DNA from: a virus
IMG/VR virus record: IMGVR_UViG_3300032288_005778
Coordinates: 18,389-82,388 of that record
Reading direction: 5' to 3' (one strand)
Length of the DNA stretch: 64,000 nucleotides
The notes below the pieces were generated by a model. It saw only the letters and a program-made list of their open reading frames with translations, ran no database searches and was not told the DNA's origin. Shown here in pieces: positions 21,683 to 64,000 of the stretch; within the stretch, counting starts at the first letter, position 1, and each line of letters starts with the position of its first letter. A program made the position numbers and the translations under genes.

Positions 21683-22348
21683 TCATGGCTTAAAAATTAA
21701 TGTTGATACTGAATGGTTTTTTCCTAATCTAATATCAAAAACAGCGTCGTAACATTGACGACCACTGTTCATGAGAGGTTTTCCGTTCTTAAACTGCGGA
21801 ACGCCATTAATTATTTTTTGGCACTTACTCATGGGAATACCTTCCTTGAGGTAATCCACTCTATCCGCGATCGGATAGATGTGATGAATATGTGCGTCCA
21901 AAGCATCCCACACTTTTGACTTTTCCTGAGAGCAATTCCAATCCAATGGCATTAGAAACAAGAGACGAGAATTGGGGCTATCATTGAGTAGTCGCAAAGA
22001 TTTTGCAACTGCTTCAACGCACAAAGAAAAAGGTGGGTTGGTGATGATAAGGTCGCATCCCCATATAGAAACATCATTGAAAAAGCAGCCATTAACCCAT
22101 GTAGCAAATGGGGCATTATTTATTCCTTGTAAAAATCGGGAATACTTGATTTCCACACACTCTACCGAGCGATCGCTCGGTAGGTATTTAGCTATTTGTC
22201 CAGAACCAGCAAAGGGTTCTAGTATCAGCCTGTCTGTGGGTAAGACCAGTCTAGACATGGCGACGGCAAGCCAGATAGGTGTTTCGTAGTCATCTTTTGT
22301 GAAGTCATCTGTGGTGACTTGTTCTTCAAAAAGCGCTAGTTGGTTCAC
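21683..22348 (-). CDS. Adenine-specific DNA methyltransferase-like protein
   Basis: 221 aa. Start is GTG 22348 with AGAGGAG 11 nt upstream. Motif I LEPFAGSGQIAKYL (SAM binding) and motif IV IITNPPFS (catalytic NPPF) identify an N6-adenine or related amino-methyltransferase. The order is motif I before IV, with a short recognition region. There is no neighbouring nuclease, so it probably protects or marks the element's DNA. Coupled to the 106-aa gene upstream. Confidence 0.8.
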   Translation of the reverse strand: MNQLALFEEQVTTDDFTKDDYETPIWLAVAMSRLVLPTDRLILEPFAGSGQIAKYLPSDRSVECVEIKYSRFLQGINNAPFATWVNGCFFNDVSIWGCDLIITNPPFSLCVEAVAKSLRLLNDSPNSRLLFLMPLDWNCSQEKSKVWDALDAHIHHIYPIADRVDYLKEGIPMSKCQKIINGVPQFKNGKPLMNSGRQCYDAVFDIRLGKNHSVSTLIFKP

Positions 22349-23223: not shown

Positions 23224-23451
23224 TTAAAATACATCAACTACGGGATTACCGTAGCCCCAGCGGGCATTCCAGGAAAGCCCTGACCAAGTGGTGATACGGG
23301 TAATTTTCCCGCTCTCTACTGTAATACTTGCCTGCTCTGTGGGAACTTCGCCAAAGTGAAATTCATCATTCTTGGGAAAATCAGCACCCAGTAAAGTGCG
23401 AAGTGCTGAAGCACTCTTCCAATTAGCAATAATAAATTCTTTAACGTCCAT
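23224..23451 (-). CDS. Hypothetical protein (75 aa) downstream of a hammerhead ribozyme
   Basis: Start ATG 23451 (MDVKEFIIANWKSASAL) with AGGAGAC 6 nt upstream; a longer in-frame start would lie inside the ribozyme. The predicted hammerhead cut (23488|23487) would leave this gene with a 36-nt leader. It contains SGKITRITTWSGLSWNARWGYG; no family recognised. Confidence 0.65.
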   Translation of the reverse strand: MDVKEFIIANWKSASALRTLLGADFPKNDEFHFGEVPTEQASITVESGKITRITTWSGLSWNARWGYGNPVVDVF

Positions 23452-23477
23452 GTCTGTCTCCTGTGGGGTGTAAATTT

Positions 23478-23533
23478 GGCTTCCCACTACTTGGTAGTTT
23501 CGTCCGGTAGCCAGCCGGACTCGTCAGGTGGGG
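23478..23533 (-). ncRNA. Hammerhead ribozyme, copy 2 (type I)
   Basis: On the minus strand: stem I arm CCCAC, core CTGACGA, stem II GTCCGG/CCGGAC with a 7-nt loop, GAAA, short stem III ACT/AGT with loop ACCA, A at the cut site, then GTGGG pairing back to CCCAC. All conserved core bases are present. Relative to copy 1 the stem I pair G.U is replaced by A-U. Cleavage is expected between 23488 and 23487. It begins just past the stop of the 78-aa gene. Confidence 0.8.
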
Positions 23534-23534
23534 A

Positions 23535-23771
23535 TTAAAAGTGTTTAACACCCCTTCTTCTTCTGACTTTTTCTATGTCACTGTAGAAAAAGTCCTTGGC
23601 ATCAAAACTAACACGATTACTGCGGGCAAAAGCCGCAGCTTTAATCGGACAATTAAAGAAGTGAAAAGAACACTGGTGTTCTTTATTTGCGTCAAGGTAC
23701 TCAACTTGTACTTCCCAAAACTTCTGTTCTGGGGCTTTGCTTAAATAATCTGGTCTTTGTAGAGCTTTCAT
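23535..23771 (-). CDS. Hypothetical protein (78 aa), strong promoter, hammerhead in 3' UTR
   Basis: GGGAGA ribosome binding site and promoter copy 3 (23803-23831). Basic C-terminus (EKVRRRRGVKHF) and a CSFHFFNCPIKAAAFARSNR segment. The stop abuts a hammerhead ribozyme. Function unknown; expression is expected to be strong and early. Confidence 0.65.
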   Translation of the reverse strand: MKALQRPDYLSKAPEQKFWEVQVEYLDANKEHQCSFHFFNCPIKAAAFARSNRVSFDAKDFFYSDIEKVRRRRGVKHF

Positions 23772-23802
23772 GTTGCTTGTCTCCCTGTTCTTTGATATTT
23801 CT

Positions 23803-23831
23803 ATCTTATTCTATAAAGAAACAATTGTCAA
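23803..23831 (-). promoter_or_regulatory. Strong promoter, family copy 3
   Basis: Minus strand TTGACA, a 17-bp spacer starting ATTGTTTCTTTATAG, TAAGAT, then AGAAATATC. It shares most of the spacer with copies 1 and 2. Confidence 0.75.
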
Positions 23832-23890
23832 TACTGAAATTAAAATTATTTTATTTGACAAGTGTTTTTATTATAGTGGGTGTAAATTTG

Positions 23891-23958
23891 GCTTCCCACT
23901 ACTACCAGGGCGGTAGTTTCGTCCGGTAGCCAGCCGGACTCATCAGGCGGGGTTAAGC
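23891..23958 (-). ncRNA. Hammerhead ribozyme, copy 1 (type I)
   Basis: Minus strand: stem I GCTT..CCCGC, core CTGATGA, stem II GTCCGG/CCGGAC with loop CTGGCTA, GAAA, stem III ACTACC/GGTAGT with loop GCCCT, A, then GTGGG and AAGC closing stem I around an AAC bulge. This satisfies the hammerhead consensus fully. The expected cut is between 23900 and 23899. It overlaps the stop codon of the upstream gene (23953-23955), so cleavage would trim that mRNA right after its stop. Confidence 0.88.
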
Positions 23959-25197
23959 GGCTTGCAACCACTTTTCAAAAGATTTAATAGGGCGGTTGGC
24001 AGTCTCCTGAGTCTTTTTATAAGCCTCATAAGCTTCTTCTATCGCTCGTTTTTCGGCGAATTTTTTACTCGCTTCTTCTTGAAAGAAGCTTATCCGTGCC
24101 ATGACAGCATCTCTATCAAAACCGATGGACACTGAAGTCCTGACTCTATTGGATAAACCGTGTGTCCGGTCGTCAAGGTGTTCCCACACCGTGCCGTCCC
24201 TTTCGCTCCAGTTGAATGAAACGACCATATCATCGCCAACCCAAAAGCGGTTTAAAAATTTGTTATAAACCTCTTTCCGAAACCATTCTGGTTCAGGTAT
24301 AGCCAACTTGGCAGCTTCTTCAGATGCTATTTTTGCCAGTCTATCTTGCTCCCAACGAGCGCGGATAGACTCTATCTTGAACACCAACTCAGCAAATGTA
24401 ATCTTCTCACGTTTACAATATTCGTACACATACCCTTGCATCAATGCAAGGATTTGTTCTTCAGTGTTAATTTGAAGAAGATTAAGCTTTTCGCTGCACC
24501 ACAGAGTACGCCCATCTGCATGGGCGTACTCCCAGACGGTATAGTAGGTTTTATCTGAGTAGATGTCCCCTGAAAAACTTAGGGACTGATTGTAAGTTGA
24601 TTTAGTTCTTTCCTTTCCCGTGGGAACAAAGGTTTCCCCCCAGTATTTTCTGGGGAGGTCATGGCAGTAGATGTCTACTGCTGACTCCAAAGATTTTTGG
24701 TTAAACATAGCGCACGGTGCAGCGCTATGATGATATTTATGCCAGTCGTTCAAGCAGGTCAACGCTGACCGAACTTCTTTCAATAGAGGATCAATTTTTT
24801 GCTTTTCCTGGACTTTATCCCAGGAAACACATTCGTGTAACCTATCAGAATCGCTATCAATATCGCCATAGATAGCGACTTCTAAGTCGTACCAATCCAA
24901 ATCTTCTGGATTTAGGCTGGTGGTAATAACAGCCTTTAGTCCAGAGGTGTTTAGCACTCCATTTAATTCATCTGCTAATTTTTTTTGAATTTCAGGGTGA
25001 AGTTCACTTACATTTATTTTAAACATTATTTTTGTCTCCTGTTTTTGCTGTACCTGTTTTGTCTGTTCCTGTTGCTCAATCTGAGCATCAATACTGATTA
25101 ACTCATCTACCCAGCGGTAGATGTTTTGTTGTCCCCTCCCGACGCGGGAGATCAAGTTTACTAGCACCTGTCTTCTGTTTACCAAGTCCATGTCCAT
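23953..25197 (-). CDS. Hypothetical protein (414 aa or 357 aa from an internal start)
   Basis: GGGAGGG precedes ATG 25197. A second in-frame ATG at 25026 (MFKINVSELHPEIQKKL) also has a strong AGGAGAC site, so a 357-aa form may be made too. The first 57 residues are a Gln-rich coiled helix. The main body has acidic, aromatic-rich segments (DLDWYDLEVAIYGD; SFNWSERDGTVWEHL) and helical parts. No family recognised. Promoter copy 4 drives it, and a hammerhead lies at its stop. Confidence 0.65.
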   Translation of the reverse strand: MDMDLVNRRQVLVNLISRVGRGQQNIYRWVDELISIDAQIEQQEQTKQVQQKQETKIMFKINVSELHPEIQKKLADELNGVLNTSGLKAVITTSLNPEDLDWYDLEVAIYGDIDSDSDRLHECVSWDKVQEKQKIDPLLKEVRSALTCLNDWHKYHHSAAPCAMFNQKSLESAVDIYCHDLPRKYWGETFVPTGKERTKSTYNQSLSFSGDIYSDKTYYTVWEYAHADGRTLWCSEKLNLLQINTEEQILALMQGYVYEYCKREKITFAELVFKIESIRARWEQDRLAKIASEEAAKLAIPEPEWFRKEVYNKFLNRFWVGDDMVVSFNWSERDGTVWEHLDDRTHGLSNRVRTSVSIGFDRDAVMARISFFQEEASKKFAEKRAIEEAYEAYKKTQETANRPIKSFEKWLQAA

Positions 25198-50227: not shown

Positions 50228-53200
50228 TTACCGCTTGTAAGGATTACCTCTGCTGATAGAACCACCGGGTCTTAGTTGCCTACGGATACCATCGCTCACA
50301 AGTGCCTCTACAGTTTGTGCCAATCTAGCGGAATCAACCTCTGAATCATTGCCACTTACGGATACACTGACAGGCACATTAACAGTAGTAGTATTACCAA
50401 TCCTTGAGGCCATCTCACCCTTACCACCACCGACTATACCACCATCAGCAAAACCAGTAATACCAGATTGCAACCTATTCCAGATAGCTGTTTCCCTGTG
50501 ATTAAGAATACGCTCACCTTCAGAAGCTACTACCAGGTGTGGTGTCCTACCAGTGAGAGAGCGTTCCTTGTTCATTGCTCCCACAATCCCCCCGTTGGCA
50601 AAATTCTGGATTTTACCCAGGGTATCTTCATCAATCATGCCACCCTTAGCAAATCCTGAGAGGTCCAGTGAGCCAAAGTCAGCAGATCCTAGTGCATCAA
50701 AATCAAAGGAACTAAAATCAAAATCGCCTGGGGAAAAGGAATCAATATTGCCAAGTCCCATGGTGCTAAGAACACTAGAACCAGCCATACCGGGGAAATC
50801 AGGCATAGGGGAATTACTACCAATTGCAGACAGAGACGCGGCTGCTTGTTGTAGTTGCAATGCTGCTGTGTTTAGATTTTGGGCTGGTGGTTGTATCCAG
50901 TTAAAGAGCGCATCAGTCATGTACTTGGATGCAATTTCAGCCAAACTATCAAGGATAGTATTAGATATTCCCTTCCAAAGCTTATCCAGTGAATCAGCCC
51001 AACTACTTCCTTCTTTGTTCCAAATAAATTCTTTAAGGGCGCTCTTAAAGCCACCTGTGAAAGACTTGAGAACCTGACTAAACTCTGAATATTGAATCTT
51101 AATAGCTTCTGATTTTAATGCCATTTCCGCGTCTAAATTTTCTCTAAGCGCGATCGCATTTTCGTTACTGATTCTCATGTTTTCAATATCTTGTTTTAGT
51201 TGCATCCTCTTCTGTGCGTACTCATGGTTTAAATTAATTTGGGCTATCTGCTTATCAATTCTTTCCCCAGCCAGTTCAAGTCCTAGTGCCTTAGCCAGAT
51301 TACCTTTACCCTCTAATACAGTCTTAGCGGAATCAGATACCTTAATACCAGCGTCTAATTCTGCTTTTTGATTTTGTAGTTCACCCTTGCGAGTATCGCG
51401 CTCAGATTGTTTTCTAATTGCACCTAACTCAAGTCCACTGTTTACCTTGAGAGCATCTATGCGTTGTTGCCTTTGTTCTGCGGTGAGTTTAGTATTGTTT
51501 TGGGTATCGAGGATTTCTCTGTTAAGTCTGTTTAATGCACTTTCCTGTTCCAAGGTAGCCCGCTTAGAAATATTAGCAACATCTACCATGCCATCTGCGG
51601 CTGTGGCTGCAAACATCTTTGCCTGTAAATCTAAGTTTTTAATACCAACATCCTCAATCAAGATTTTGACATCTAAAGCATTTATTTCTCGTTCAATTTG
51701 TTTGGCTAAATTGTCAGTATTGTACTGCATATCAATTTTTTCTATTCCTAGTTTATAGGTTGTTTCAATCGCTTTTCTTCTGCGCTCAAAATCCTCTTTA
51801 GTCATTGTTCCCCGCTTAGTTCTCTGTTGCTCTAGTAATTCATTCTCAGATTTTAGTTTTTGATTTTGTAAACCGACGATCGCTACTATTCGCTCCATTG
51901 ATGGTATCTGCAATATATCTTTATTTAATGGGAATGATTTTTCAATTTGTTTAAGCAACTCTAGCTGACTTTGCAGTACGCCTATATCAATACCAAGATT
52001 GTCAGATGTACGGGTGTTTTGTGCTATTTTTTGCCTAATTTTAAAATCATCTAAAAGTCGTTGTAGGATAATAGGTTTGTTTTTTACCAGGGCATTTAAT
52101 TGGTTTTGGGCTGACTGGGCTTCTTTGGTATTGGAACTTTGCAAAGCACTATAGAGTTTTTGCAGTTCTTTCCCGTCCGTTTTTATGCCAAGTGATTGAA
52201 GTCGCTTAACCAAATTGTTAATTTCTTCTCCAGACAGATTGGGCATTTGGGATGCGCGAACAATCTTTCTGCGGTTATTAATTTCTTCATCTATCCTGAG
52301 TGATTCCTCTGCGTATGCTAGATCAAATTTTTGCTGTTCAGTAGCAGCAGGGTCACTGTCAAGAAACATTTTCCTGGTATTTAGTTTACCGCGTCGTGTA
52401 CGTAGGTCTGTATCAGCAATTTTGTTTTCAGTCTCTATTTTTAATTTTCTCAGATCCGTTAAGGCTCTGATTATGGTGGACCTCTCCTGTTCTTTTGAGA
52501 GTCTAATTTGTTCCTTTGTTAACTGTGTCTTTGTCCGTGTATTAGCAGTGGATGCTTCAGGAATAAGTCGTTGTTGTGTTTTGGGATCAAGTGTTTGCCC
52601 TCTTATCTGTTTTTCTGTTAGTTCTCTAGCAGTGTTTTGAAGGGTTTTTGTTGGTGTAGTTTTTGGTGTAGTTTTTTTTGTGGTTTTTTTTGTGGTTTTT
52701 GGTGTAGTTTTTTTTGTGGTTTTTGGTGCTTGTTGTTGATTTCTCTTTTGTTGTTCATCATAAGGTTTTTTTACCGGTCCTATTGGAGCTTGGTTAGGCC
52801 GAGAACCTGGGTTATTTTCAGCTACTCTTTTGCCAAATCCAAACACTGAAGTCGTCATATTCCATGCTCCTCTTCCAAGATTTTTTAGCCAGGATGGACT
52901 AACATTTTCAAGCTTTTTTAGCCAGGATGGACTAACATTTTGTGGAACTAAACCCAGTTTTTCAGTATCAGGATCTATTTCGTCAAAAAACCAATTACCA
53001 AATCTAGTTATAGGGTTTCGCCGTTTCCCTTCAACTGCATCTCGGAAAAATTTGCTAGGATTTTTTTTGATACCGTCTATTGTCACAGAAACATCAACCC
53101 CGCCGCTTCCTTCTAACATACCATCCTGCGTACCTAAGACTTGTCCAGCCGTAATAGATGCTCTCTTGTCTTTGCCGAACTTGATGTTTTTGTCTATATC

Positions 53201-56200
53201 AAGTCCTTCATATCTGATTTTCAGTAATCTTCCATTAATCTTTTTTTGTACTTCTACTGTATTTGCGTTCACTTTTAATAGCGACCCCGTGATAGACGAA
53301 AGCAATTTTTGGGTTTCACCACCATAAATTGTTATTTTTTTATCTGAATTAACCGAGTAATTTTCCTTATTAAATTCAGAGATATTCATTCCGTCAATCG
53401 GGGAGACAATGGCATTATCGGGAGGCTTGGGTTTATTATTTTTTGGTTTGCCGCCAGGCAGGGCTTGAGCCACTAATTGAGGCTGTGGAGGTAGGTAAGG
53501 AACGTCACTGGCAATCCCTGCCACTAAGACCCCTTTGCTCATGGATGCGATCGCTGTCGGATTAATGGCGGGTAATTCTGATTGCTTTGTTGGTATTCCC
53601 AACTGCCTGTACAGATCGTTGTTGGGTTTTTTGGGATTAGATATAGGTGTAATTGGATCGCCAGGTACGAATAGCGAAGGAGGTACAGGCGTGTTAGGGT
53701 TGCCTGGCAATGAAATAACAATGCTAGGCATGGAGTTAAGATTAGAAAATGTGTTAGACACCCTTGTTAGTGCCATGTTTAACCCGTTGGTAGAATTAAC
53801 CACATCTACCCCTAGCATTTTGTTGATGCGCTCAATCTCTTTACCAATGTCCAATAAAGTGCCACCAATACCTTTTAAGGATTGATTGAATTGCCCAAGT
53901 TTACTGGGGTCTAAACCAGGAATACTACGCTGCAACTCAGACATTTTTAACTCCATGTCTGTAATACTATTTCGGTATTCTAGTTTTTGCCTTTCCTGAT
54001 CAATTCTGATGTTTTCAATCTCACCAAGTTGCTGAAATATATTAATTAAACCTTCTACAAACTCAGTAACAATGTTAGTTCCCGCTCCAATTAATGCCTG
54101 TCTCAACCTGTTAGCAAATCCCAGGTTTTTGATACTGACAATGGCTTTTTTGTATTCAATAACGGCTAATTCAGATTCTCTAATATTTGTCCGGTAGTAT
54201 TCCGCCACCTGTTTAGTCTGGTCAATTAACGCTTGATTAGCTTCGCGTCGGGCTTTGGCAATCTCAAGGACATTCTGGCTAATCTGTTCCTTATCCTTCA
54301 TGATGTCCTGCTGTAGCTTCTCTATCTCTGATGTCAGCCCAGCCATGTCACCGACCCCTAACGCAAGGGCAACATTCAGATTTTTTAGGTTAGATTCCTT
54401 AACTGTTAAACTCTTGTTAAGCTCAGATTGTTGAGTCTCCAGATCCTTGATTTGTTGCTTGGATAATTCAGGAGCAATCTGCTGAGATGTCAAATTGGTT
54501 TTGTTGTAAATTTTGGATTGGGATAGGTTCGATGCTATCTTATTGGCATTCATGTTTGCATTGTACTTAGTCTCAGCGTCCTTGAGTGCGTTGGTTGCCT
54601 GAGTGTACATACTTTCAGATATTTCTGCAATACTAAACTGATTTGCAGTCGCCAACATCTTTTCAAGTTGATTTAGCGTTTCTCTAAGTTGCTTGGTAGT
54701 AACCTTCCTTTGTGCTTCTGGAACATCGCTCTTAGTCTGAATTTCAGCTATTTTATCTTTGGTATCTTTGATCGATCTCTTGAGTGCGGGCGTGATGTCG
54801 CCAAAGCTGCCAACAAATCCCTCCCTTTGCTTTTGCAGTTGTTTAATCAGTTCCCTGGTTGTTCCTGCTTTAGAGCGTAAAGCAGAGCTAGGGTTTGTTC
54901 TTAGTTGTTCCTGTAAGTCCACAAACTCAGTAGCAGCTTTCTTGAGTCTAGCGTCAATATTCTTGATCTCATCATAGTTAAGTCTGCGTTGGGCTGAAGC
55001 ACCAATATTTGTTTGTAAGGTGGCTTTTTGTTTTTTTAAGTTCTCTAATTCTTCTTTTAATCCTTCTCTTACTGCTATTTGTTTTCGATTCTCAGGATCA
55101 CGTATACCTCCTCTAGTATCAATATACTTGTATGTAGAACGATGATCTGCTATCTCTTTTTCTTTCTCTTCAATCTGCTTATCAATTGCATCCATTTTTG
55201 ACTTATTGCCATAATTAGCCATGAAGTTCAATTGCATCAACTTTTTATTTTTTTCAAGTTGAGCGAGTTCAGCTTGTACCTTTTTATAAGGATCTCCTGA
55301 TCTTGCTGCTGACTTTTCAACTTCCGTGTCTGCATTGTCTTCTATTGCTTTCAGTGATTTTCTTTTGTTTTCAATATCAGTATTAATGTTTTTTACTTTA
55401 TCAGTATCTTCAAATTCTTTCCTTTGTTTTTCAGACATAGTAGCCCGTGGTGCAACAAAGTTATTGGGGTTGCCATCTAGTCCTGCTGAGTTGGCAAATT
55501 CGCGTAGTCGCTCATTGTTCAATTTCTGATCATTGTAAAGTTTAATAACCTGTTGTGACGCTAAATCTAATCTTTCGCCTTCTTTCTTGGCATTGATAAT
55601 CTGCTTGATTTCAGGTGGCAACCCACCCTGGTTTTCTGCGTTGTTTAGTTGTGCTTCAGTAATCTTAGGAGCAAACAAATCTAAAGCAACAGTAGTTAGT
55701 CCTATGGCGGCGACAAGTCCTGCGATCGCTAAACCCCAGGGTCCCATTATAGCAACCACAGGAGCTATCGCTGTAGCAAGTCTGCCGAAAAGAGGAACAG
55801 CCATACGTGGTCCAGCCGCCGACCCTAGTGCTGCATTTGAAGCCAAGATTGGACCTGCTTTTACCGCAAGGTCTACAATTGCTTTTGCTGCTTTAGCACC
55901 AGCAGCATAACCATATCCAGCACCTCCGGCATATAAAGCACCAGTTCCTATAACATCCATTGCGCTTGGACCCTGTGGACTCCCGCCTTTACCATCTGTT
56001 CTGTATTTCGCGTTAGTTTCCCGTACTGCATCGTCCCATTTCCAATCACCGCCACCCCAGAGACTTCTAATATCTAGTTGCACACCCTTAGATGGTAAAG
56101 CGTTAGCAATACCATTGCCCAGTTCCTCTACTGATTTAGTGGCTTTGTTAAACGCTTCGGTGGTTTTGTTGATATTTAGTCTGACATCAGTTAAGTGTCT

Positions 56201-59200
56201 GTTAATGTCTGCGGTAGACTTATTAATTGATTCTCTCATAGGGTCGCTAAAGTCACCCTTAGAAAACATGAGAGCAGCATAGCCTATGCTAAAGTGCAAC
56301 AACGCTTTACTCAAGAAGGCCAGCCCCCCCTGAACTATTGCCATACTTCTTGCGTTTCTAACCGCCACATCGTTCATAGCGTTTCCAGCAACAGCAGAAG
56401 ATGTCATCATTAATTCAGTAACAGATTTAATTGTCCCCATTACTCCATAAAATGCTTTTGCCGTAGCACCAAATATTCCGGTAATGCCTCCCCACAAGCC
56501 TTTAATAGCAGGCCACAGAGCCGCAACCATTAAGCCCGTCCCCTGTTCTAGCATGAATACTATAGCGAGTAGTTCTACCAATCCAGATGGAATAATTTTA
56601 AAGAATCCTGCAAACACTCCTTTAAGCCATTCCATGATATTACCAGCCTGTTGTGCGCCTTGGATTAAGCCACCAAACATACTAGAAAAACTAAATTGAT
56701 TGTTACTCATGGAACGCATGACTGAATCTATAGTCCCAAAAACAGTGACAAACATATTGCTAATGCCTTGGAACATATTGTCCATAAGGTTCTTTTCTGC
56801 ACCTAACCAGCCATCGGCAACGTCAGACATTACACCAATAACCATAGGCATCATATTGGTGGTAATAGCGGAAAAGGTAGCTAACAAGAAGCTTTGCAAG
56901 CTTGTCATTACAACTAAGAATGGCTTAAATTTGGAAAGAATGATTGTTAATCCTATGCTGATTGTGGCCGCAAATCCAATCATAAAGGATTGGGCTAGTG
57001 GTATTAAATCTTTTAATGCACCGCTAAGTACGCCTAAAATATTAGCAAAGCTGTTTACAAAGAATGCTAGTGTGCCACCAAGTTTATCAGTAAATATTGT
57101 TGTAATCTCAAAGCCTACATTACCTAGTTTGTTAAGCGCAACTACCAGTCCCCCGGCTTGGTTAGCGGCAGCGTTACCATAATCTTCTTTTAATACTTTG
57201 GCTACTTTAGGTAAAATATCTTGGGACAAAATCCCGCCAGATGCTACCAGGGCATTCATTTCTGGCACTGATACACCCATAGCTTTGGCAAATACAGCCA
57301 TGGCAGGAGGGAATTTTTCACCTAACTGCTGCCTGAGTTCTTCCATGGATAATTTGCCTTTAGCCAATATTTGTGTATATGCCACGAAGACTAAACTAGC
57401 ATCTTGTCCATTAATACCTAACGCGCTTAAAGATGAGGTGATACCTTCAAATAGTTCCTTAACCCCTTGACCTTCCATCTTGCTGTCTTTAGCCGCGATC
57501 GCTAGTTGGGAATAAGAGTTAGCAGCTACTTCTGAAGGCACATTAAGTTTGTTGGCAATATCTTTTGCGTAATTAAATTCTGCTTTTCCGCCCTCTGTTG
57601 ATCCGCCTAAAAACTTAAATCTTCTCTGTAGCGCCTCTACCCTTTGAATGCCATCTATTAATTTAGCTACGTGGGGTGCAACCATGTTTACAGCCATGCC
57701 TATACCTGTAATGATTGGAGCTAAAGGTAATAACAATGGCGTGATTGCACCTATCATGGTAGTAATTGGTGCTAAAGTGGTAGCAATTGAGCCAAAGAAT
57801 TGAAGAACATTGGGGAACATCTCATCGCCTTGGCTGCGATCTTTAAACAGCAAGTTTTTCACCCCAGACCCCATCTGGTTGTACATTTCTGTAAATTGGG
57901 ACTGAGTGGCTGCTGTACCCCTAAACATACGGCGGAATATTAATCCCACGGAGTCACCAAAATTAGCTTGTCCTAATGCTTTTTTGGCGTTGTACTCTAA
58001 ATCATCTTTGGCGTTAGCTAAATTCACCATTGAGTCTTTTAAGCCTTTAGCCAAGGCTTTACCCATGTCAAAGCCTTTTTCTCTAAATTTAGCCTGTAGC
58101 CCGCTCAACGTGGTCATCAATCCTGCGGTGGCTGTGTCTAAAAGCTTAGGGTCGATGTTGTTAATTTGCTTGGCAGACATCCCAGTTTTTCTTAACCCTT
58201 GCTTGACCAGTTCCTTCATTGCATCCTGGTCATTACTGGCGTAAGCTTCTGTGAATCTACCCATGAATCCGCCTGTACGGGGATTGTCTCTCAAGTTGTC
58301 AGCAAAATTGCTTAAACCTTGTCCGCCCTGTGACTGTTGAACCTGCTTTCTTTCAGCGCGACTCATTCCGCGCTCTTGCAAAACAGACATTGCCATAGCA
58401 TCCCGTTTTCTTGTGGCTACATCATTTCCCATCCTTGCTGCATGAGATTCAAAGTCACCCATAAACTTCAGAAGTTTACGCTCTCTAGCGGTTAAATCAA
58501 TTGGGGATTTAGTTATTTTTTCACGGGCTGCGGCTAATTGTTCCGGTGTCATGGCATTACGCACAGATTCAGTGACACCACGCTCTCTTAGTATTTGTTT
58601 AGTGAGTATGTCTGCTCTTGCACCAACATCTGTTCTACCTGATTGAACGGTTTTTTCTAATAATTGTTCAGCCTTGCTTTTTTCAACTCCAAACGCATTA
58701 ATAGCATCTGCTATTGTTGCTGATCTCTCTCCCATTTTCCTGCCAATCAATTTTTGAATTACAGACCTAGGAATAACAGGAACATCAAGGCTATTCAAAA
58801 CACTATTTAGTAAAGTATTTCCTAGGTTTTCTACTAGTTCTTTACTAGCAATACTGGCATTAGCAGCAAGATTTTGTCCTACCCCTGTGTTGATATTGGT
58901 GCTAGTACCAACTTCTTTGACATCACGCAAGAGAGCTTTTTTTCTGTTGATTTTAGTCTGGTCTTGTAATACTTTTTCAATAGTAGGAGCTTGTTTTTTG
59001 GGGTTGGGATTCACTGATTTATCTAGTCCTAAAATGCCACTAAAAGCGTCATAAAGCGGGCTTGCGCTTGATATCCCTAGCCCCAGTAATGGATTAAACC
59101 GTGAACCAACCAACAGAGGTACTGGACTTGCAATATTTTTCAAAAACCCTGCAACGCCAGCAGTTTTAGTTCCCGACAAAGCCGATAAATCTATTCTAGT

Positions 59201-62200
59201 AATGGAACTCAGTAGATTTGTTAAGAAACCACCTTCTTTTAAGATATTGTTTTCCAGTAAATTCTTAACAATTGAATTACCCAGTCTTAACACCATACCA
59301 CCAACAAAAGGTATGGCAAAACTTAGTTTAGGAAGTAGTTGAAAACTGCGAGGTATAAATTTTAAGAACCAAGGCAACATACTCCTGGTTTGAGACAATA
59401 AAGCCTGATGTAGTGGTTGTTTAAGCGTGTCTGCCAAAGAAAACAAAGCTGCGTTAACAGCATTCCGCATGACTTGACCCAATGAAGCATAACCAGACAA
59501 GGTGCTTTGGCGGATGCTTGCACTAACGGCATTAAAAATATTTGTCACCAAATCAGTACCTAAATTTAAATACTGGTTTAATAATGTAGGTGGCAAGGGT
59601 CGTACAGGGTTTAAGTTGGGGTTGTCGCTTATACTTGGGACTGAACTTGTGCTTGGATTTGGGTTAACAGGAAATGTGTATGCTGGTACGGTACTTCCAA
59701 GAGTTTGAGGCGGGAAAACATATTTTGGCGCAGTAGTACCAGCAGGTTGGGGAATAAAGGATGGTACGGTAGACGAAAGTGTAACAGGTATTTGTCCAAT
59801 AGGCAATTTACTAGCTTGTTTAAACGCTTGAGTAGAACGCAGTGATGTTAGCCAAGAGTCAGGTATTGGACCATATTGCCCAGCCATTTGATTGCTTAAT
59901 TGTTTGACTGTTTGCGTAGGCAAAGGTGGTGTAGACAAAGGTGGTGTAGTCCAAGGATCTGGTATGGGCGCAAAACGAGAAGAGACCGTTACCTTATTCC
60001 CGGCAATGGTAGCTTGTATTTGTTTGTTAGCAGCAATTAAAGCACTTATACTATTTTGTGCCAGTGAATGAGTTGATCTTATGGCTGGTGACAGCCCTTG
60101 AACAACCGGTAAAATCAATTGTGCATCGGGTTTAGGCGTAAACTTTTGAGATGAGATGATCTGTGCGTTAGGATTGGGTGCAAAGTTCTTGCCGGAAAGT
60201 ATCTGTACGTTAGGATTGGATACAAAGTTTTTGCTAGAAAGTATCTGTGCGTTGGGATTGGATACAAAGTTCCCTGGTAAAATTATTGGGCTAGTACGCT
60301 GTGTTGTTGGTGGTTGGGATCTTGATAGTTGCGTCATCGGTTGTTGAGCAACGATTTCTCTAGCCAATCTCTGTAGATTAGACTGAGTTTGTACAAACGA
60401 ATTGATGTTTAAACGTTCTCTAGCAGGTGGCAATAGAAATTGAGTTTTTGTTGTTTGCTTGACAGTGTTAACTAGTTGCTCAACTGAATCGTTCCAAGGA
60501 TCTGGGATTGAAGGAATGGTAGTTTGTGTCCGCTGAACTGGTGGTACATTGGTTACGGGTTCAATAATCTCTCTTGCATAAACGGGGACAGGAGGAAGTG
60601 CTGGCAACTGGGTTATTTTTGGTGTTGGGGTGTCATTAACGCCCAGCATCATTCGGTTGTATGCGTTTCTAGCCTTACGATAATTATTGTTATCTTCTGC
60701 TAAAGCGCGTTTTACAGCTTGACTGTATTCTTGATCTGTTTGTCCTGGCTGTCTTTCCGGCACTGGGGTTTTAGGTGCTACAAATCTAGGTGGTTGGTAA
60801 GCTGCTGTGTTTACAACTGACCGATTTGATGCTAATAATTCGTCAATCGACTGACCTTTTATCCCCAGCCTTTTTGAAAATTCAACTATTCTTAATAATA
60901 TAGAATTAAAGCCCGCATCAAGACCCCTGAGAACATCGGGATCTATTGGGTTTCCATCAGCGCGAGCGATCGCAAAATGATGAGCAGCTAAAGTTCTTTG
61001 TTCTTGAAAATCATCAACAAGTCTGTTGTGAACAATGCTTTGAAGTGGGGTGAGATTTGCCGATTTCTTGTTTAAATAACCAAGTAAATTAGAGCTAGAA
61101 AGAACATTACTGGCAATACCTTCATGCCCAAAATCGGCACCAAAGTTAACACCAACGTCGGACAATAAATCTTGAATCTTGAGTTTTTGGAAGTGTTCTT
61201 TGGTGGCTTTGATATGGGCTTGTGCTTGGCTTTCTAAATCTAAATCTTGTTGGAATACAGGGTTCATTGGAAGAGGAGTATCCCAAGGATCAGCGATCGC
61301 GTTCCTAATGTCTTCTGCCATGTTTCTAGCAGCATTAACAGCGGTCTGGGCTTGGTTGTTAATACCAATAGCATGGGAACTGGCGTAATTTTCCCCAGTA
61401 TCAATACCTTCACCTGATGGTGATGCTATTCTAAATACTTTTTTGATCGCACTGAGTATGCCCTTGGCAAACTTGGTGACTATTCCTAGTACACCGCCAT
61501 TTGCAGACATAAACCCTTGTGCAAAAGAAGATATTAAGTTGCCGCCTATTTCTTTAAGGTTAAATCCACTATTAAATAAATCTTTAACTTTATTTATTTT
61601 GTCACCAATACCTTCACTACTTGGATTATTCGCTTTAAACTGAGCTAACAAAATATTATGCAACCGAGATTGCATATCGCTATCACCTCTTACCCCTGCC
61701 ATTCTATGAGCAGAAATCAAAGACAATGCGCTTTCTTTTGTCATATCATTATTTGGGTTTTCAAGCTTATCATATATATCTTCTGCTACCAGCCTATTTT
61801 TGTAATCGCCGGATTTTTCTTGTTGATCAAGTTGTTGATAATACTCTTCATATTGCTTGTTTAGTTGACTAGAAACAGGATCAAAAATATTATCAAATAC
61901 CTTTTTAAATTTACTTCCTTCTCCAAAATCTTTTTTGACTGCTGAAACAAGGCTTTTAATGCCTCCTTCATCACTTGACTGAGTGGCTTTAATATATTTT
62001 GATATCTCTGGATGTTCCAAGAATGATTTTAAGTTTGGATTACCTTTAATGCTTTTAGATTTTAAATAAGGTTTTGTTGCTAAATCAATAAGATCATCAA
62101 ATTCATCTTTATTTAAATTATGGGTTTGAATATAGGGTGATCCGCCTATTACGGACGAATGAACAGAATGCCCTAACTGAAAATCATGCTTTTCTTTATT

Positions 62201-64000
62201 CAAAAAAGAAAATAGTTCTCGCCCAGTATTGGTGTCATACTTAGAATAAGCTTTTGAGCCACCAAAGTCAGTAGACTCTAACCCCAGTAAATTAACTAGC
62301 CACTGGTTTTTATCAAGCATTGAATATATTTTTTTACCAAAATTATTAGGTAAACTAAATGGAGTATTTTTGTCAGTTTCCTCGCTATTGTGCCAGTCAT
62401 AAACATCATTAATCTGTAATCCACCATCTTTAGTTTGGGTGTAATTAAATCCGCCTAATGTATGTGCAAGGGTAGGTAAGTTTTCATGCTTAACCATATT
62501 CACAAAGCCACCATCAGGTAAATAACCTTCTTTTTCCGCAGCTTGCATCATATTAAAAATGGTGGCAATCTCTGCCTCTCGCGCTAAAGCAGAATTAAGT
62601 TTATGCACTTGTGCTGTTCCTTGATAGAAAGCCCCTAAATGCCTTAAAGGCGTTTCAATATTTTTGGGTGTCAATCCTGAATTAGCTAAACCCATCATAA
62701 TAGTTCCAATCATAGAACCAAACGCAGTAGGCTTACTTATTCCTTTGGACTCATCGTAAACTTTTTGGGTTAATTCAGAATTTGGACTAGATGCGTTTAA
62801 AGTTGCTTCCTGAAAAGCCTCAATATTTTGTGACGGCAAAGATTGCAAGGACTTCATCTTGTTGATTACCATGTCCGTTAATCCATCAGTGGCACTGGAA
62901 ACATCAATAACACCTTTTTTAATCCCTATAGCCAACCCTGACGCTATCATTAATCCCAATGCTATCATCACCTTCGATGGTGAACTAATGCCCATGTTCT
63001 GCTTGATTTGGGACTGAATTGAATCACCTAATCCAGTGATCGCATTAGTAGCAATACCAGCATTTTTGAGTATACCCTGTTCTAATCCTTTGACAACATC
63101 CTTACCCGTCTGGACAAAATTAGCTACTGGTGCAAACTTACTTATAGCTGCATTACCCAGAGAAGCTGCTGTTCCCATTGCCACAGCCCCAGCGTTGTAC
63201 AGGTTAGCGTCGTTGCCACCGTGCATATCAGGAATTACTTTTAAGCCACCACCAAACATTTTTAACGCTTCGGCGCGTCCTATTTTATTTGCTTTTAAAT
63301 ATTGAGGAAGTACATTTTTAAATGTACTAGCGTAATTCAGTGTAGAGTCTTGTTGTGTTTGTTGCTTAGTATCTTGGTGTGCTTGTTTTAAGGACTTAGC
63401 GATCGCCATAGTTCTGAAAGCAGCCGCTACGCCGTCGTTAGCCGATCCTATGGGATTGGTGAAAGCCTTTAATCCTAGTGGAGTAACGAGTTCCGTGCCA
63501 AATTTAGCGATGTTGACTAAATGGTCAACAGCTTCTCTAGGTTGGGTAAAGGTCTTGTCTGTTACCGCATCTTTAACAAAGTTTTTGGCTGTCCCATAAG
63601 TAGCTTGGAATAAAGTCTGATCTGGGTTAGCCGCGTGGTGTTCCCCAACCTTATCAAGCATATTTAAACCCGTGCTAGTGGCGGACATAGCAATCATAGC
63701 TTTGTTGCTAATGTCGCTTAAATTGGGTATCATATACGTACCCGCCAAGCCTAAGCTAGATAAATCATTGAGAGGGTCAAATGCAGATTTAACGGTTGTC
63801 ACCATTTTCCTAGCACCCTCGGACACTTTGCTGTTCCCCTTCTGCATCCCAAAGAACAACCCAGAAGCTATCATCATCCCAATCTCAAACATCACCCAAG
63901 ATGGAGACTGGATTTTCATTTTAGCTTCAACAGTTTCAATTAAGTCATCAAGCATCTGTCTGGCAGCAGTTGACACGCCATCAGAGCCATGCTTAACACC
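50228..64000 (-). CDS. Tape measure protein, N-terminus beyond the window
   Basis: At least ~4,590 residues; the frame stays open to the right edge, so the start at 63976 is not certain. Repeated SPSxVMxxIGxMIASGL motifs lie at the N-terminal end. The tape measure domain (FNYAKDIANKLNVPSEVAANSYSQLA, near residue ~2130) is flanked by membrane-like helices (~2080, ~2330, ~2740). A degenerate M23-like segment lies near ~3530-3635, and the C-terminus has SEGERILNHRETAIWN. It sets tail length and helps DNA entry. Low-complexity KTT repeats lie near ~3760. Confidence 0.92.
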   Translation of the reverse strand, partial: GVKHGSDGVSTAARQMLDDLIETVEAKMKIQSPSWVMFEIGMMIASGLFFGMQKGNSKVSEGARKMVTTVKSAFDPLNDLSSLGLAGTYMIPNLSDISNKAMIAMSATSTGLNMLDKVGEHHAANPDQTLFQATYGTAKNFVKDAVTDKTFTQPREAVDHLVNIAKFGTELVTPLGLKAFTNPIGSANDGVAAAFRTMAIAKSLKQAHQDTKQQTQQDSTLNYASTFKNVLPQYLKANKIGRAEALKMFGGGLKVIPDMHGGNDANLYNAGAVAMGTAASLGNAAISKFAPVANFVQTGKDVVKGLEQGILKNAGIATNAITGLGDSIQSQIKQNMGISSPSKVMIALGLMIASGLAIGIKKGVIDVSSATDGLTDMVINKMKSLQSLPSQNIEAFQEATLNASSPNSELTQKVYDESKGISKPTAFGSMIGTIMMGLANSGLTPKNIETPLRHLGAFYQGTAQVHKLNSALAREAEIATIFNMMQAAEKEGYLPDGGFVNMVKHENLPTLAHTLGGFNYTQTKDGGLQINDVYDWHNSEETDKNTPFSLPNNFGKKIYSMLDKNQWLVNLLGLESTDFGGSKAYSKYDTNTGRELFSFLNKEKHDFQLGHSVHSSVIGGSPYIQTHNLNKDEFDDLIDLATKPYLKSKSIKGNPNLKSFLEHPEISKYIKATQSSDEGGIKSLVSAVKKDFGEGSKFKKVFDNIFDPVSSQLNKQYEEYYQQLDQQEKSGDYKNRLVAEDIYDKLENPNNDMTKESALSLISAHRMAGVRGDSDMQSRLHNILLAQFKANNPSSEGIGDKINKVKDLFNSGFNLKEIGGNLISSFAQGFMSANGGVLGIVTKFAKGILSAIKKVFRIASPSGEGIDTGENYASSHAIGINNQAQTAVNAARNMAEDIRNAIADPWDTPLPMNPVFQQDLDLESQAQAHIKATKEHFQKLKIQDLLSDVGVNFGADFGHEGIASNVLSSSNLLGYLNKKSANLTPLQSIVHNRLVDDFQEQRTLAAHHFAIARADGNPIDPDVLRGLDAGFNSILLRIVEFSKRLGIKGQSIDELLASNRSVVNTAAYQPPRFVAPKTPVPERQPGQTDQEYSQAVKRALAEDNNNYRKARNAYNRMMLGVNDTPTPKITQLPALPPVPVYAREIIEPVTNVPPVQRTQTTIPSIPDPWNDSVEQLVNTVKQTTKTQFLLPPARERLNINSFVQTQSNLQRLAREIVAQQPMTQLSRSQPPTTQRTSPIILPGNFVSNPNAQILSSKNFVSNPNVQILSGKNFAPNPNAQIISSQKFTPKPDAQLILPVVQGLSPAIRSTHSLAQNSISALIAANKQIQATIAGNKVTVSSRFAPIPDPWTTPPLSTPPLPTQTVKQLSNQMAGQYGPIPDSWLTSLRSTQAFKQASKLPIGQIPVTLSSTVPSFIPQPAGTTAPKYVFPPQTLGSTVPAYTFPVNPNPSTSSVPSISDNPNLNPVRPLPPTLLNQYLNLGTDLVTNIFNAVSASIRQSTLSGYASLGQVMRNAVNAALFSLADTLKQPLHQALLSQTRSMLPWFLKFIPRSFQLLPKLSFAIPFVGGMVLRLGNSIVKNLLENNILKEGGFLTNLLSSITRIDLSALSGTKTAGVAGFLKNIASPVPLLVGSRFNPLLGLGISSASPLYDAFSGILGLDKSVNPNPKKQAPTIEKVLQDQTKINRKKALLRDVKEVGTSTNINTGVGQNLAANASIASKELVENLGNTLLNSVLNSLDVPVIPRSVIQKLIGRKMGERSATIADAINAFGVEKSKAEQLLEKTVQSGRTDVGARADILTKQILRERGVTESVRNAMTPEQLAAAREKITKSPIDLTARERKLLKFMGDFESHAARMGNDVATRKRDAMAMSVLQERGMSRAERKQVQQSQGGQGLSNFADNLRDNPRTGGFMGRFTEAYASNDQDAMKELVKQGLRKTGMSAKQINNIDPKLLDTATAGLMTTLSGLQAKFREKGFDMGKALAKGLKDSMVNLANAKDDLEYNAKKALGQANFGDSVGLIFRRMFRGTAATQSQFTEMYNQMGSGVKNLLFKDRSQGDEMFPNVLQFFGSIATTLAPITTMIGAITPLLLPLAPIITGIGMAVNMVAPHVAKLIDGIQRVEALQRRFKFLGGSTEGGKAEFNYAKDIANKLNVPSEVAANSYSQLAIAAKDSKMEGQGVKELFEGITSSLSALGINGQDASLVFVAYTQILAKGKLSMEELRQQLGEKFPPAMAVFAKAMGVSVPEMNALVASGGILSQDILPKVAKVLKEDYGNAAANQAGGLVVALNKLGNVGFEITTIFTDKLGGTLAFFVNSFANILGVLSGALKDLIPLAQSFMIGFAATISIGLTIILSKFKPFLVVMTSLQSFLLATFSAITTNMMPMVIGVMSDVADGWLGAEKNLMDNMFQGISNMFVTVFGTIDSVMRSMSNNQFSFSSMFGGLIQGAQQAGNIMEWLKGVFAGFFKIIPSGLVELLAIVFMLEQGTGLMVAALWPAIKGLWGGITGIFGATAKAFYGVMGTIKSVTELMMTSSAVAGNAMNDVAVRNARSMAIVQGGLAFLSKALLHFSIGYAALMFSKGDFSDPMRESINKSTADINRHLTDVRLNINKTTEAFNKATKSVEELGNGIANALPSKGVQLDIRSLWGGGDWKWDDAVRETNAKYRTDGKGGSPQGPSAMDVIGTGALYAGGAGYGYAAGAKAAKAIVDLAVKAGPILASNAALGSAAGPRMAVPLFGRLATAIAPVVAIMGPWGLAIAGLVAAIGLTTVALDLFAPKITEAQLNNAENQGGLPPEIKQIINAKKEGERLDLASQQVIKLYNDQKLNNERLREFANSAGLDGNPNNFVAPRATMSEKQRKEFEDTDKVKNINTDIENKRKSLKAIEDNADTEVEKSAARSGDPYKKVQAELAQLEKNKKLMQLNFMANYGNKSKMDAIDKQIEEKEKEIADHRSTYKYIDTRGGIRDPENRKQIAVREGLKEELENLKKQKATLQTNIGASAQRRLNYDEIKNIDARLKKAATEFVDLQEQLRTNPSSALRSKAGTTRELIKQLQKQREGFVGSFGDITPALKRSIKDTKDKIAEIQTKSDVPEAQRKVTTKQLRETLNQLEKMLATANQFSIAEISESMYTQATNALKDAETKYNANMNANKIASNLSQSKIYNKTNLTSQQIAPELSKQQIKDLETQQSELNKSLTVKESNLKNLNVALALGVGDMAGLTSEIEKLQQDIMKDKEQISQNVLEIAKARREANQALIDQTKQVAEYYRTNIRESELAVIEYKKAIVSIKNLGFANRLRQALIGAGTNIVTEFVEGLINIFQQLGEIENIRIDQERQKLEYRNSITDMELKMSELQRSIPGLDPSKLGQFNQSLKGIGGTLLDIGKEIERINKMLGVDVVNSTNGLNMALTRVSNTFSNLNSMPSIVISLPGNPNTPVPPSLFVPGDPITPISNPKKPNNDLYRQLGIPTKQSELPAINPTAIASMSKGVLVAGIASDVPYLPPQPQLVAQALPGGKPKNNKPKPPDNAIVSPIDGMNISEFNKENYSVNSDKKITIYGGETQKLLSSITGSLLKVNANTVEVQKKINGRLLKIRYEGLDIDKNIKFGKDKRASITAGQVLGTQDGMLEGSGGVDVSVTIDGIKKNPSKFFRDAVEGKRRNPITRFGNWFFDEIDPDTEKLGLVPQNVSPSWLKKLENVSPSWLKNLGRGAWNMTTSVFGFGKRVAENNPGSRPNQAPIGPVKKPYDEQQKRNQQQAPKTTKKTTPKTTKKTTKKTTPKTTPTKTLQNTARELTEKQIRGQTLDPKTQQRLIPEASTANTRTKTQLTKEQIRLSKEQERSTIIRALTDLRKLKIETENKIADTDLRTRRGKLNTRKMFLDSDPAATEQQKFDLAYAEESLRIDEEINNRRKIVRASQMPNLSGEEINNLVKRLQSLGIKTDGKELQKLYSALQSSNTKEAQSAQNQLNALVKNKPIILQRLLDDFKIRQKIAQNTRTSDNLGIDIGVLQSQLELLKQIEKSFPLNKDILQIPSMERIVAIVGLQNQKLKSENELLEQQRTKRGTMTKEDFERRRKAIETTYKLGIEKIDMQYNTDNLAKQIEREINALDVKILIEDVGIKNLDLQAKMFAATAADGMVDVANISKRATLEQESALNRLNREILDTQNNTKLTAEQRQQRIDALKVNSGLELGAIRKQSERDTRKGELQNQKAELDAGIKVSDSAKTVLEGKGNLAKALGLELAGERIDKQIAQINLNHEYAQKRMQLKQDIENMRISNENAIALRENLDAEMALKSEAIKIQYSEFSQVLKSFTGGFKSALKEFIWNKEGSSWADSLDKLWKGISNTILDSLAEIASKYMTDALFNWIQPPAQNLNTAALQLQQAAASLSAIGSNSPMPDFPGMAGSSVLSTMGLGNIDSFSPGDFDFSSFDFDALGSADFGSLDLSGFAKGGMIDEDTLGKIQNFANGGIVGAMNKERSLTGRTPHLVVASEGERILNHRETAIWNRLQSGITGFADGGIVGGGKGEMASRIGNTTTVNVPVSVSVSGNDSEVDSARLAQTVEALVSDGIRRQLRPGGSISRGNPYKR
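52881..52941 (-). repeat. 33-bp tandem duplication in the tape measure gene
   Basis: Two copies of TTTTTTAGCCAGGATGGACT (plus-strand view), 33 nt apart and in frame, giving a repeated VSPSWLK segment. Confidence 0.8.
60126..60275 (-). repeat. Four ~45-bp tandem units in the tape measure gene
   Basis: Encodes NPNAQIL-type 15-residue units (about residues 1234-1283), slightly diverged from each other. Confidence 0.75.

Follow-up and report, generated by a model that had tools for sequence, protein, structure and literature searches.

Hammerhead ribozymes of phages and prophages were described by Perreault et al. in 2011 as elements that flank single genes, occur in several copies and carry a pseudoknot, and it was proposed that they cut long phage RNAs into single-gene messages (PMC3088659). 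Tandem hammerheads of the phage type cleaved in vitro and a set from Agrobacterium cleaved in E. coli, while 4 of the 18 consensus hammerheads tested in that study were inactive (PMC3088659). What they do in phages is still regarded as unsettled (PMC6155905). The idea that hammerheads split phage polycistronic RNA thus dates from the 2011 publication; what is new here is a subfamily that is missed by Rfam, its precise placement from stop to start codon, its occurrence at the joints of shuffled genes, and a fold-back arm downstream of the cut.

The DNA analysed here (hereafter the window; 64,000 nucleotides) represents bases 18389-82388 of a virus record of 82,388 bases, an 82-kb tailed-phage contig. 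The window encodes a tail J-like protein, a portal protein and a DnaB helicase, and it also holds a minus-strand ORF of 4,582 aa (50228-63976). Since the closest named relative of the contig is the Aphanizomenon phage CL131 (vB_AphaS-CL131, MG209611.1), the host is probably a cyanobacterium. With a covariance model, exactly two elements, copy A and copy B, are found in the whole record. Their parts and neighbours, in positions of the window, are:

23953..25197, minus strand: gene A (414 aa, without a known family), whose stop codon precedes stem I of copy A by 1 nt
23876..23951, minus strand: copy A, predicted type I hammerhead with 3' tail (descriptor, covariance model, covariation)
23951-23947, minus strand: copy A, stem I strand CCCGC
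23946-23940, minus strand: copy A, core CTGATGA
23939-23921, minus strand: copy A, stem II and its loop
23927..23933, minus strand: copy A, loop II CTGGCTA, TGGCT pairing with AGCCA of the tail at 23893-23889 (pseudoknot covariation)
23920-23918, minus strand: copy A, GAA
23917-23901, minus strand: copy A, stem III and its loop
23900, minus strand: copy A, A17; predicted cut between 23900 and 23899
23876..23899, minus strand: copy A, predicted hairpin at the 5'-OH end of the downstream product, GTGGG (23899-23895) with CCCAC (23880-23876) (folding, fold-back statistics)
23803..23831, minus strand: TTGACA-17-TAAGAT, a promoter-like site in the gap from copy A to gene B; L004 has it too
23535..23771, minus strand: gene B (78 aa), flanked by the two ribozymes; its stop codon precedes stem I of copy B by 2 nt
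23463..23532, minus strand: copy B, predicted hammerhead with a 3-bp stem III; predicted cut between 23488 and 23487 (descriptor)
23508..23514, minus strand: copy B, loop II CTGGCTA, pairing with AGCCA of the tail (pseudoknot covariation)
23498-23489, minus strand: copy B, stem III ACT-ACCA-AGT
23463..23487, minus strand: copy B, predicted 5'-end hairpin, GTGGG (23487-23483) with CCCAC (23467-23463) (folding, sequence)
23224..23451, minus strand: gene C (75 aa), starting 36 nt past the cut of copy B

A preliminary description of this DNA had reported two minus-strand hammerheads at consecutive gene ends, and these are real: both copies fit the type I hammerhead descriptor and contain the complete core (CTGANGA, stem II GTCCGG/CCGGAC, GAAA and U-A at the cut site), the cuts lie before 23899 and before 23487 as claimed, and the stems III do differ in length, copy B having just 3 pairs. 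The stem I difference (CCCGC versus CCCAC against GTGGG), which had been taken as compensatory, is instead a one-sided change from G-U to A-U without a double change; it is consistent with stem I, and true double changes occur in relatives. Each element had also been said to begin at a stop codon, but the two start 1-2 nt past it (TAA), whereas the placement of the cut ahead of the next gene holds. The covariance model, of which copy A itself is a member, scores copy A at 90.2 bits (E 3.5e-23) and copy B at 75.2 bits. A loose type I descriptor yields 2 matches in the window versus 4 in 100 dinucleotide shuffles of it, a tighter core pattern 2 versus 0 in 100 shuffles, and the two copies have a 20-nt tail in common where 0 would be expected.

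Relatives were collected by pattern scans of viral contigs and bacterial genomes (including Crocosphaera assemblies), a protein search with gene A and the covariance model, which together gave 70 distinct elements. As the patterns prescribe the core together with some of the tail, the invariance of the core among the relatives is partly imposed by the search; the stems and the gene position were not part of the patterns, except for the GTGGG strand in some of them, and L178 as well as most copies of L169 were reached without patterns. The orthologs in L173/L174 and L178, which were retrieved through their proteins rather than with a ribozyme pattern, have an element at the same gene end, while other gene A homologs, such as that of L177, have none there. 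BLAST searches gave no match in plasmids, and in phages only CL131 and a weak match in a Salisaeta phage. CL131 contains two copies, namely a full relative at the end of gp142 (100% coverage, 87% identity) and a second one at the end of gp131; the latter (L170, CL131 98366-98446) has a weak stem I and a changed yet complementary pseudoknot (UGGU/ACCA). The CL131 elements are not annotated as ribozymes, and the words ribozyme and hammerhead are absent from the genome paper (PMC6293099). Salisaeta icosahedral phage 1 (JN880423; L138:1930-1975) carries a hammerhead that fits the descriptor between ORF 17 and ORF 18, and may have a second, partial one near L138:1501. Two self-cleaving classes are mixed in the phage contig L049, in which a hammerhead of the subfamily of copies A and B is followed, some 600 nt downstream, by a Twister-P5 ribozyme (L049:3337-3392, 53 bits).

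In an alignment of 24 sequences, including the pseudoknot, 98.6% of the cells are paired and double-sided changes occur at 13 of the 21 pairs, with 55 double-sided cells compared to 13.6 in shuffles and 1-11 in slid controls. All three stems covary (stem II, for instance, is GTCCGG/CCGGAC in the window and GGACGG/CCGTCC in L004), and so does the pseudoknot that loop II forms with the 3' tail, with variants such as GGCU/AGCC, GACU/AGUC and GGUC/GACC. At least three Watson-Crick pairs of this pseudoknot can be formed by 68 of the 70 elements, compared to 47 (maximum 57) with swapped tails. The comparison thereby shows both the ribozyme fold, which has the open stem I and the loop-closed stems II and III of type I with covariation in all three helices, and a tertiary contact of the stem II loop with the stem I side. 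By comparison alone, copy A is very likely a hammerhead ribozyme.

The window elements resemble the phage hammerheads of 2011 in their core, the open stem I, a pseudoknot linking loop II to the stem I side, the copies flanking single genes and the proposed role in processing phage transcripts (PMC3088659); here, the two copies surround gene B on the coding strand of a window with phage proteins. They differ in that the subfamily, which is found in cyanophage and related contigs, stays below the Rfam gathering score and in that a covarying downstream arm can re-pair with the 3' strand of stem I, an arm of which we found no description in the cited hammerhead literature. The best Rfam match of copy B is RF00163 (Hammerhead_1), to which it aligns over the whole model with an identical core at 22 bits versus a gathering score of 34 bits, the latter being a model threshold and not a defining feature of hammerheads. 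Copy A is not listed under RF00163, its best match being RF00008 with 17 bits, and at gathering there were no hammerhead matches in the window and 13 related loci. A loop II pseudoknot on the stem I side is also known from the pseudoknot hammerhead with an added helix IV (PMC11300833) and from pistol ribozymes, but here a stem II of 6 bp with a loop of 7 nt does without any helix IV. An assignment to pistol was rejected, as the core is that of a hammerhead and the window has no Rfam pistol match at gathering.

The position between cistrons likewise emerges from the comparison. Among the 70 elements, 41 have a stop codon within 6 nt upstream (control 3.7%) and 60 a same-strand stop codon within 80 nt upstream (control 24.7%); a Shine-Dalgarno sequence plus start codon follows within 70 nt in 46 (control 15%), and both flanks are found in 41 (control 4.4%). 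Across related phages, gene families A-F are joined in varying orders with a ribozyme at the joints, namely A-B-C in the window, A-F-C in L004, A-D-B-D' in L178, E-C in L028, E-D in L029 and D-D'-B in L034. The products of genes A, B and C have no Pfam or PHROG match; a DNA methyltransferase-like gene (PHROG 799, E 1e-18; 21683-22348) lies downstream of these ribozyme-linked small genes. The densest array of the set, L169 (G014:C1:33000-42500), has seven hammerheads in a row within 5.7 kb, with a gene start 37-49 nt past each cut and pseudoknots of the UGACU/AGUCA type in most. After copy A the next start codon follows 128 nt past the cut, with the promoter-like site in between, which matches at 10 of 12 positions but is weak on its own given 14 such sites in the region versus 12.4 expected. 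Because this site follows copy A, gene B may also have a transcript of its own, and one polycistronic transcript running through copy A is not supported. Of the earlier proposal that a polycistronic early mRNA is split, the placement for cutting between genes is strongly supported by the covariation and the positions of the 70 relatives, though not an early timing; the splitting itself is the explanation that fits best.

A further comparative feature is that the complement of the stem I strand recurs past the cut, as CCCAC where the strand is GUGGG (spacers of 6-20 nt), and in other elements as CUCGC for GCGAG or CCCGC for GCGGG. A fold-back of 4 Watson-Crick pairs is found in 53 of the 70 elements, against a mean of 35 and a maximum of 46 with swapped tails, a swap that keeps relatedness. 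Where the stem I strand is other than GTGGG, 13 of 28 elements have it versus 12.3% with mismatched tails. The test was restricted to Watson-Crick pairs because counting G-U pairs made it uninformative (50 versus 45 with swapped tails). If the pseudoknot is ignored, stem I and fold-back are nearly equal in energy, and with the complete tail the nearest-neighbour prediction prefers the fold-back to stem I in both copies. Before cleavage the arm would be expected to compete with stem I and afterwards to form a hairpin at the 5'-OH end. In copy B, the CCCAC directly adjoins the ribosome-binding site AGGAG (23462-23458). One could tentatively imagine a built-in strand exchange, in which GUGGG has two alternative partners, one upstream in the active ribozyme and one downstream, the CCCAC next to the ribosome-binding site, although we regard this as rather unlikely. 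If true, cleavage would be confined to a short co-transcriptional window or be irreversible, and the released message would gain a 5' hairpin. Since the ribozyme starts within a few nt of the stop codon, it is also conceivable that a terminating ribosome could block it and thereby couple cleavage to translation.

Equal activity of both copies is not supported, given the minimal stem III of copy B and a competing fold. This stem III has 3 bp and is 6 nt shorter than that of the L017 ortholog, which lies behind the same gene B and has 6 bp, and folding of copy B predicts in its place a 5-bp hairpin (ACUAC-CAA-GUAGU) that is incompatible with the core. Copy B may therefore be slow, dependent on a partner or decaying; it is probably slower than copy A, and its chances of being active would appear about even. 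That only copy A works in this phage and that copy B is a decaying ribozyme falls, in our estimate, slightly short of an even bet, as copy B has kept an intact core, stem I, stem II, pseudoknot and fold-back, and as type I hammerheads whose helix III is unstable are known to cleave better in dimeric form (PMC6155905) and a second copy is available 400 nt upstream. This sub-question is compatible with the explanation that we prefer for copy A.

From our point of view, that explanation, the processing of intercistronic RNA by hammerheads, is quite probably the best one. A type I hammerhead would fold in the nascent transcript just past the stop codon of the upstream gene, be held active by the pseudoknot of loop II with the 3' tail, and cut 3' of an A. 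The RNA of the upstream gene would receive a structured 3' end, in which stems II and III precede a terminal 2',3'-cyclic phosphate, and that of the downstream gene a 5'-OH end refolding into the GUGGG/CCCAC hairpin, in copy B beside the ribosome-binding site. Small genes that are otherwise co-transcribed would in this way obtain separate messages with defined, protected ends; we infer actual cleavage, end protection and an effect on expression. Against this explanation speak the core and tail letters partly fixed by the search patterns, the gene A homologs without an element, the preference for the fold-back over stem I in folding without the pseudoknot and the promoter-like site before gene B. 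Of the 2011 precedents, the inactive consensus hammerheads also speak against it and the cleaving tandem and Agrobacterium sets speak for it (PMC3088659).

The varying orders of gene families A-F, with an element at the joint, could also mean that the elements are mainly conserved joints, that is, near-identical repeats through which small genes are exchanged by homologous recombination, cleavage being incidental. Recombination, however, needs sequence identity, yet the stems vary freely while their pairing is kept, which points to selection on RNA structure, and we consider this reading improbable as the main explanation, even though both may be true together. Less probable still is that the elements, without any catalysis, only stabilise the gene ends as hairpins or act as weak terminators: stems II and III do form strong hairpins behind the stop codon, but no T run follows the element, and the catalytic core, the pseudoknot and the C or A that precedes the cut would be without purpose, yet they are kept in L178 and most of L169, which were not chosen by pattern.

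Two cuts on one strand would also leave a 5'-OH and a 2',3'-cyclic phosphate, ends that are substrates of RtcB-type ligation, and the pair could thus excise the RNA in between (412 nt here, with gene B) for ligation into a circular RNA as in retrozymes. We hold this to be highly improbable, as the distance between copies tracks the length of the gene, with 412 nt in the window, 438 nt in L004 and roughly 540-1,530 nt in L169, many contigs have a single copy only, and circles were sought with other phage hammerheads but not found (PMC3088659). Membership in the retrozymes was rejected, since there is no unit of fixed length and the unit length follows that of the gene.

Overall, processing between genes by hammerheads would extend to a subfamily that standard Rfam annotation missed in every locus tested. 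As phages related to the cultured isolate CL131 combine one set of small genes in varying order, with ribozymes at the joints, this subfamily offers a clean test of the role of hammerheads in phages.
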